This document shows, piece by piece, positions 12,701-15,700 of a stretch of DNA of 64,000 bases. This DNA comes from Procambarus clarkii (Eukaryota; Arthropoda; Malacostraca; Decapoda; Cambaridae): assembly GCF_040958095.1 (NCBI RefSeq), contig NC_091160.1, positions 41,393,302 to 41,457,301 on the forward strand. Direction: 5' to 3'. Both the position numbers and the translations under genes were made by a program. The notes under the pieces are model-generated. The model made no database searches. It worked only from the letters and a program-made list of their open reading frames with translations, and was not told the origin of the DNA. The first letter of the stretch is position 1. The number at the start of each line of letters is the position of its first letter.

Positions 12701-15700
12701 CAACATTTTTAAATTTTGCTACAAATTACCTACATGAAATTATCTGTTAGATTAAGGACCTGCTCGAAATGCTATGCGTGTTAGTGGCTTTACAAGAATG
12801 TAAAAAACATCAATGTTATGTACTCTCATAAACCCAATGTACCTTCTTGTATATACTGTATATACATAAAATAAAAATAAAAATAAATAGCATGGCTTGA
12901 AAATATGAGAACTAAATCATACACCAGAAGATGAGACGACAATGTTTCGGTCCATCCTGGACCATTATCAAGTCGATTGTGTATGAATCAGTATGGATTA
13001 ATCTTATTTCCTGGATTGTGCTTTCGACTTCACACAATCAACTTGATAATGATCCAGGACGGACTGAAACGTCATCGTCTCTCTTCATCTTCTTGTGTGT
13101 GGTTTGGTCAACACTCTTCAATCACATTATTATGACTCATCGTCTGCATGTGCTTTATTTGATTGTATTTACACTATTCTGAACCACTAAACTTGCCGAT
13201 AATGCCAGAGAAAGACTTATCAATCAATTAATTAAAGTATTTATGGCAGGATCATAAATGTGAAACCAATTTCATTCCATTGTTTCTCAATTTGTAAATC
13301 TTTTATAAATACGATACAGTTGTACAGAACTGTGTAATTAAATACAGTAGGAGTAACCAGTGGTGCCCGGGTCTTGCTTCCCCTTTGCCCTCTCTGCTCT
13401 TTCATTCTCACCTCTCTAATTCTTTTATCTCTCTCTCCTCTACTCATCCTCCTTCTGCCCTTCCCCCCCCTCTCCCTAGCCTCCTCTCTTTATCTTAATC
13501 TCTGTCTCAGGAAATGTAATGCTGTAGCCAAAATGAATTAACATTCATCATTTGAGTAAACCATGAAAAATCGTGAGTTAACAGTTGAAGTTGGCATCAA
13601 AACTCTACAGAAAAAATATCAGTGATATCATTGCAATCTTCCTGAAAATCCCAGGGGCATCACTATAGATGCAGATATTTTTTAAAGCATGGCATTTGGG
13701 CCAACCCAGAATTATGCATTTTGGGTGCTCCCACACCCACCATGTGTCGTGTTGAAAAGTTGGGTGAAGCTATCCCAAGCATCTGGCCTCCTAGACATTT
13801 TATTTTATATAGTTTTATTTGTGCTTATTCTAAATGCCAGACACAGCCTTCATATGTATAGTAATTATTTAAGAAATTCATACATTTTAACTTAATTGTT
13901 CTTTAAAGTTTAGATGAAATTTACTTAAATAATTAAATGTGACTAGTGCAATATTTTGTTGCAGATCATTTATTCAACTTATTGGTGACCTGTCAGAGCT
14001 GCGGGACAAGGACTATGGTGACGAGACGCGAGGGGTCCCCAGACCCATCACTGGACCACATAATGTTGATGCTGTAGCAGGTCAGTCACAACATTGCTGT
14101 GGTAATCATTTTCTGAGCTCTAGTATAACACTTCTCCTATTTTTACTATGTACAGTATATGAATATTTTATACAATGGTATATAGAATAATGTAGAAATT
14201 TGAATTATTATGCTGCACTTTGTTCAGTGATAGGTTCAAAAATATAAGTTTAGAACTTAAAATTAACTTACTATTTCCAATATTCTCACCATAAATGCAT
14301 CAAATTTGCCTGCTATTTTGAAAAGCTTAACAATATTTGTTACGTTATACGTAGACATTGTATGATTCTAAGAATCGGTTTAGTAACATCAGGTGAGTGA
14401 GTATAGGTGCTTTCACCGCTGTAACAATTTAGCAAGTGGCATCATTCCATACTGTTTTAGATCAATGAAGATATGCAATTTGAATTGTATTTTATTGTTC
14501 TGCTGTGCTGTAAATTTGTCACAAAATGATGTATTGCAAATAGGGGCAATTAATGTACAATATTTTGGAAAATTTGATACTGTATAAAAGTTCGTTATTT
14601 CTACATTTCTTTCAGAATACGCGTACATTCGCCTGGACGACCTGGACGTTGTGGCAACGCTGGGAGTCGGAGGGTTCGGACGAGTGGAACTAGTACAATA
14701 TGCCCATGATAAGACTATGACTTTTGCCCTCAAGTGCCTTAAGAAACAGCACATTGTTGAGACACAGCAACAAGAACATATTTTTTCAGAGAAGCGAATC
14801 ATGATGGCAGTTCGTAACCCATTTGTAGCAAGGTAAAGCCCTTTATGTAAATGAAAATGTTTGACGATCCATTTATAGCATGAAACAGTAACATCTTTGA
14901 GTGGTTTATAACAGTATGGAAATGCTGTAATATGTAACTACTGGGTAATATATTTGACAGTGCTCAGAACAGGCTGTATAAGACCTTCCAAGTCATACAA
15001 TATTATAAGTCTCACCCTACAGGTCGTACAAGACCTTCAGAGTCATACTGTTTAATAAGCCTTACCCTATAGGTCCGACAAGACCTTCAGAGTCATACTG
15101 TATAATAAGCCTCACCCTATAGGTCCTACAAGACCTACAAGACCTTCAGAGTCATACTGTATAATAAGCCTTACCCTATAGGTCCTACAAGACCTTCAGA
15201 GTCATACTGTATAATAAGCCTCACCCTACAGGTCCTACAAGACCTTCAGAGTCATACTATATTATATGCCTCACCCTACAGATTATACAAGACCTTCTGA
15301 GTCATACTATAATATGTACATCACCCTACAGATTGTACAAGACCTTCCGAGACAATAAGTATGTATATATGATGATGGAAGCATGTCTAGGTGGCGAAGT
15401 ATGGACACTCTTGCGTGATCGTGGTTGGTTTGAAGACCTCACAGCCAGATTTTACACCGCCTGTGTCGTTGAGGCCTTGGAGTATTTACACGCCAAGAAT
15501 ATCATTTACAGAGATCTCAAACCAGAAAATCTCTTGCTGGATTCTACAGGATATGCAAAGTTGGTAAGTCTTATCTATTGATGTCCAGTGCTCTATTTTC
15601 TACCATTCTAATTCTAGTTTCTTCCAATAATGAACAACCGAGCACCATTCTATTATTTCTAGTGCTCTGTGTTGAAATTTTGCAGCATGTATATTTATCA

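Follow-up and report, generated by a model that had tools for sequence, protein, structure and literature searches.

Several systems are known in which a tandem duplication or a minisatellite multiplies splice sites. Closest to the locus studied here are the amphioxus "mirages", namely repeats that span intron-exon junctions in the globin genes BflGb6 and BflGb9, in Adh3, in troponin C and in PGBD5; splicing of the genes concerned was reported or inferred to be normal, and in BflGb6 the inner units are homogenised and the edge units are not (PMC3087553, PMC3902484). Another possible fate of such duplications is illustrated by the RdRp gene of potato, in which a tandem duplication reaching over an intron-exon boundary created an intron, with support from RNA-seq (PMC4974935). 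What is more, a human interferon-induced minisatellite is reported to provide several splice donors (Turri et al. 1995, cited in PMC3618361), and RNA secondary structure is able to hide splice sites (PMC4615370).

Here, we analyse a 64,000-nucleotide stretch of the genome of the crayfish Procambarus clarkii (the window; all positions without a contig name refer to it), in which a 50-bp minisatellite spans the acceptor of a kinase exon. As far as our searches show, the array is of a kind known from amphioxus and new for a crustacean. Namely, in literature from which subscription journals were mostly missing, nothing was found that joins minisatellites, alternative splicing and crayfish, and junction minisatellites appeared, in the accessible texts, for amphioxus only.

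Results

Judged by homology, the gene that hosts the array is a cGMP-dependent protein kinase (PKG), as a sequence-only reading of the same DNA had already proposed. Namely, the 358 residues encoded by the exons between 13965 and 22346 have cGMP-dependent protein kinase 1 as their best PDB match (7t4t, 2.4e-159), and they align with it end to end, with the kinase domain intact and the PKG C-terminal tail present. The PKG1-type assignment denotes this best PDB match. A search of NCBIfam returned bacterial kinase models only, all under their cut-offs, and did not help in naming the gene. On the + strand, exons c (13965..14080), f (18181..18344), g (20544..20729) and h (21093..21159) were placed by acceptor analysis, with their ends read from the sequence, as was the last coding exon i (22251..22346), which ends in SGWDLDF followed by a stop and is also backed by homology. 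The two exons of main concern here, on the same strand, are exon d and exon e. Exon d (14616..14832, from translation and homology) belongs to the N-lobe of the kinase and ends in NPFVA plus the AG of an Arg codon, in phase 2, at the donor AAG/GTAAAG, where the slash marks the splice boundary. Exon e (15332..15563) starts at the acceptor CCCTACAG/ATTG and ends in GYAKL at the donor TTG/GTAAGT. Since the homology to PKG1 is ungapped across the junction of 14832 with 15332 (NPFVAR/LYKTF), we take the true acceptor to be the one before 15332, and the alignment shows that joining these two positions would yield an intact kinase.

The minisatellite extends from 14969 to 15351, with a period of 50, 7.5 copies and 84% matches according to Tandem Repeats Finder. 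Unit alignment places its unit across the boundary 15331/15332, with 28 nt of intron end and 22 nt of exon start; the sequence-only reading had the 50-bp length right and the split, at about 20 and 25 bases, approximately so. The motif CCCTA[CT]AG precedes six full decoy starts, at 15023, 15073, 15123, 15182, 15232 and 15282 (units u1 to u6), as well as the true start at 15332 (u7), and the successive spacings from 15023 through 15332 are 50, 50, 59, 50, 50 and 50 nt, u3 owing its 59 bp to an internal duplication of 9 bp. The same six AG-bearing, exon-like copies had been counted before, and the array and the unit alignment together bear out the proposal that the junction was multiplied in tandem, with decoy acceptors ahead of the true one. 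Absent from that count was a degenerate seventh upstream copy, u0, which begins at 14973 (CAG/GCTGTATAAGACCTTCC). Compared with the 22-nt exon start, six of the seven upstream copies match at 16-19 positions and u3 at 13, with a second internal start in u3, at 15132, matching at 16; shuffling the bases of the intron 500 times gave 15/22 at best.

What would the use of each decoy do to the protein? By translation, splicing to 15182, the start of u4 (15182..15231, + strand), would add an in-frame stretch of 150 nt with no stop in it, that is, 50 extra residues starting after the (R), precisely as the sequence-only reading had it. The other six upstream starts (14973, 15023, 15073, 15123, 15232 and 15282), all on the + strand, end in stop. 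In particular, u0 (14973..15022; from sequence, unit alignment and frames), with its acceptor-like CAG, encodes RLYKTFQV before a frame shift and a stop. The acceptor of u1 (15023..15072) lies 309 nt from the true site, a multiple of three, and is therefore in frame, yet closed by stops; it is the 9-bp duplication in u3 that brings it back in frame, and this in-frame distance had gone unmentioned before. The frame is shifted by u2 (15073..15122; 259 nt), by u3 (15123..15181; 209 nt) and by u5 (15232..15281; 100 nt). Finally, u6 (15282..15331), 50 nt away, meets a stop straight after RLYKTF, so that the frame shifts expected one and two units upstream are indeed there. As for the open 150-nt frame, 24 of the 125 ordered triples that can be formed from the five observed 50-bp units are likewise open, and base shuffles of the 150 nt are open in 5.8% of 5,000 trials. 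Because so many unit triples are open regardless, such a frame needs no selection, and we rejected the in-frame extension as evidence of selection.

The exonic part of the unit codes for LYKTF, which is conserved in PKG and retained in u0, u6 and u7; u1-u5 read S(Y/D)KT instead. This conservation and retention support an exonic origin of the array, with the exon as the seed of the repeats and not the reverse. A single-unit outgroup was sought in a paralog, the PKG-like gene on contig C22 (L040, 10 kb), where the start of exon e found no match; an exon of that gene begins near RDRGNF. In pairwise comparison, the inner units are nearly identical, with u2, u4 and u5 sharing 46-48 of 50 positions, and the edge units have diverged, with 43/50 between u6 and u7 and 25-31/50 between u0 and the others. 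Alike inner and diverged edge units are the usual sign of homogenisation within a tandem cluster, and we read the unit alignment in this way.

In u1-u5, the acceptor AG opens the sequence AGGUC-N6-GACCU, for which a hairpin with a stem of 5 bp is predicted, at -5.2 to -6.5 kcal/mol, with AGGUC coming from the junction and GACCU from the exon sequence, while u6 and u7 read AGAUU and have no predicted hairpin. In local folding with a window of 100, the predicted probability that the AG is unpaired is 0.032, 0.009, 0.007, 0.004 and 0.008 in u1-u5, which places them among the lowest 0.4-3.9% when the 566 AGs of the region are ranked, as opposed to 0.467 in u6 (15282) and 0.42 at the true site (15332). 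For comparison, the six other PKG acceptors lie at 0.07-0.33, and the median of the 566 background AGs is 0.254. The values for u1-u5 are 0.003-0.046 at a window of 60 and 0.002-0.032 at 150, with the AG before 15182 at 0.003-0.008 across the three window sizes. When fixed flanks of 25, 40, 75 and 150 nt are folded instead, the true site gives 0.06, 0.89, 0.24 and 0.41, u6 gives 0.54, 0.06, 0.65 and 0.70, and u1-u5 give 0.00 at every length. In other words, these predictions set the inner decoys firmly apart, but they do not fix how open the true site is, since its value varies with the folded length. That said, other real PKG acceptors, which are presumably used, often fall below 0.1 with fixed flanks, and low accessibility alone is therefore no proof of silence. 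Moreover, because they share an ancestral unit, the five hairpins count as one event and not as five. The changes that complete the stem, from AGATT to AGGTC, both mend imperfect pairs; that selection may have acted on them is only a suggestion, concerning as it does one shared event noticed post hoc. As a whole, the global RNA structure of the 568-nt stretch is not unusual (z -1.05).

Other splice signals were compared as well. Going upstream, another AG is met after 11 nt in u1-u5 and after 28 nt in u6 and u7. In its pyrimidine tract, the true site (0.62) does not surpass the six full decoys (0.62-0.75), and u1-u5 carry AG/G, a common acceptor consensus, as opposed to AG/A at the true site; both points speak against silent decoys. 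Branch-point motifs (YTNAN, 14-45 nt upstream) do not tell true and decoy sites apart.

The same contig carries, at a distance of 1.29 Mb, a second copy of the array that is identical over 384 bp (C11:42695483-42695866). More broadly, window positions 1-36295 are duplicated from C11:42679688 onward, with uneven divergence, and the duplication extends roughly 9 kb beyond the upstream end of the window, as traced with a probe (L009:8000-9500) that is itself partly repetitive. In what aligns between 14077 and 16920, the two copies differ by no substitution, and few substitutions are seen up to approximately 27 kb, mostly in the simple repeats at 17087-17251; positions 1-9198 align with the second copy in pieces of 94.9-97.8% identity. 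Five minisatellites in the more divergent part have, in the two copies, 8.5/6.5, 10.8/19.8, 12.0/13.1, 24.4/49.4 and 15.7/7.6 repeats. Within the low-divergence block, an array at 24346-24701 is unchanged in length, and a repeat near 16861 and a TA run near 17057 differ between the copies. Because the block around the PKG array is almost free of substitutions, the identity of the array says little on its stability. The duplicate may stem from a true segmental duplication, or else it may be a retained haplotype.

Some features of the surroundings deserve mention in their own right. Tandem repeats with a period of at least 10 cover 42% of the whole window versus 18% of its first 25 kb, with 25000-64000 being rich in minisatellites. 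Between 11841 and 12658, stop-to-stop frames of 151 and 182 codons give the impression of degraded retroelement coding sequence. Elsewhere in the assembly (4.03 Gb in 2,308 contigs), the crustacean neurohormone family PF01147 has nine matches, five of which cluster at C37:10181571-10237901, one of them on the opposite strand.

How common are such arrays in this genome? We surveyed 80 exon loci, 30 from a kinase search and 50 from kinesins, which left 72 after dropping 8 duplicates (>95%). A repeat lies near the end of the match in 7 of these 72 distinct loci, and it spans an acceptor in two, namely in the PKG exon, which had been chosen beforehand, and in a kinase exon on contig C39 (L025). 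The figure of 2/72 is a rough one, since other PKG exons are among the 72 and some matches fall short of the exon edge. As for the remaining five loci, the repeats of L057 and L074 are, on reading the sequence, intronic only, and those of L029, L036 and L087 are automated calls of about two copies and low score. L025 (C39:9735045-9735224, minus strand; reverse-complement positions 1402, 1459 and 1516) is SGK1-like, its best PDB match being Sgk1 (5.4e-25), and its array consists of 2.5 copies of a 57-bp unit. Its acceptor was placed by homology alone, with no upstream exon recognised in 1.5 kb. Two putative decoy acceptors lie 57 and 114 nt upstream, both stop-free in the frame of the exon, and would add 19 and 38 codons. 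The exonic overlap is short, with 7-8 of the first 10 bases matching and little beyond, and the exonic origin is for this reason less certain than for PKG. In L025, the predicted probability that the AG is unpaired is 0.199 and 0.03 for the decoys versus 0.062 for the true site. Since these decoys are no more hidden than the true site, the hairpin feature is not general.

Discussion

We consider it likely, with a probability of about three in four, that the array is a mostly silent junction minisatellite, in which 14832 would still be joined to 15332, the inner decoys would be masked by hairpins and 15282 would be the main leak. According to this reading, a 50-bp segment that reaches 28 nt back into the intron and 22 nt into PKG exon e would have been duplicated in tandem, and the copies would then have multiplied and been homogenised in the middle, as happens in minisatellites, giving a "mirage" of the amphioxus type. 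The inner decoys would be kept quiet by folding, each of them, its own AG into the predicted 5-bp hairpin and by carrying a second AG 11 nt upstream. The decoy at 15282, which is the nearest to the exon and has neither a predicted hairpin nor a close upstream AG, would be the one to leak, and its RLYKTF-stop product would probably lead to mRNA decay. As for the outcome of splicing, we infer that 15332 is most likely the main site, with the decoys mostly silent.

Would the leak be enough to matter? One may argue that the decoys act as a brake, in that some transcripts would use 15282 or others, run into a stop and be degraded, thereby lowering PKG output, perhaps to an extent set by copy number or conditions. 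Consistent with this, 15282 is predicted to be about as accessible as the true site (0.467 vs 0.42, window 100), it is free of AG for 28 nt upstream, just like the true site, and its product stops after RLYKTF. However, the amphioxus cases were reported to be without aberrant mRNA (PMC3087553, PMC3902484), and the array in the second copy is identical, with no variation seen. On balance, we regard a brake as unlikely. A related proposal is that junction minisatellites are recurrent in this genome and that the homogenised inner PKG unit became self-masking by taking on the changes that complete a hairpin over its own acceptor, so that the array could expand without harm to the gene, with the unmasked 15282 serving as an adjustable leak that ends in a stop; we would put this as a slightly less likely conjecture.

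The sequence-only reading suggested a different outcome, namely a locus of splice choice. On such a model, some tissues or alleles would use 15182, and their PKG would be longer by 50 residues, inserted ahead of strand beta-4 in the N-lobe. The extension is indeed in frame and stop-free, and the acceptor motif, CCCTATAG/G, is intact. That said, the AG is predicted to be paired within a hairpin (unpaired probability 0.003-0.008 across three windows), which makes it one of the least accessible of the 566 and for which reason the in-frame isoform is disfavoured; a second AG lies 11 nt upstream; with 24 of 125 unit triples open, the frame is an ordinary one that can do without selection; and splicing in amphioxus was reported as normal. 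In addition, the insert would hit a conserved kinase stretch that aligns gap-free, at a point that we take to be the alphaC-beta4 region. Variable splice choice thus finds no support here, and we think the use of 15182 quite improbable. Most improbable of all is that the array is an assembly artefact, or that an older minisatellite supplied the start of the exon, for even though the window is minisatellite-rich, with tandem repeats of period at least 10 covering 42% of it, and near-identical duplicate regions are present in the assembly, the units differ among themselves (84% matches) and LYKTF, part of conserved PKG sequence and kept in u0, u6 and u7, points to the exon as the source.

The interest of the array extends beyond PKG. 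Junction arrays offer natural test cases for the choice that the spliceosome makes among near-identical acceptors, as well as for intron gain by tandem duplication, and the hairpin prediction makes the choice of acceptor testable site by site. Furthermore, the presence of a PKG and an SGK-like array in one genome suggests that such arrays may arise wherever minisatellites are common.

How, then, does the PKG array compare with the known systems? The human interferon-induced minisatellite, which resides in the gene 6-16/IFI6, shares with it the repetition of splice sites, but these are reported to be donors and not acceptors. In potato RdRp, the duplicated segment is, as in PKG, an intron end plus an exon start with its acceptor; however, a single duplication there produced a real new intron, whereas the PKG array is known from sequence alone. 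With respect to the amphioxus mirages, the host is a crustacean and not a cephalochordate, and the unit of 50 bp compares with 150-160 bp in BflGb6 and 10-72 bp in Adh3. Hairpins that would hide the AG are a prediction for the PKG array. As in the amphioxus reports, the PKG array combines three structural features of a mirage, namely tandem units across the intron-exon boundary, splice signals retained in many of the units, and inner units that are homogenised, with the edges of the cluster excluded.
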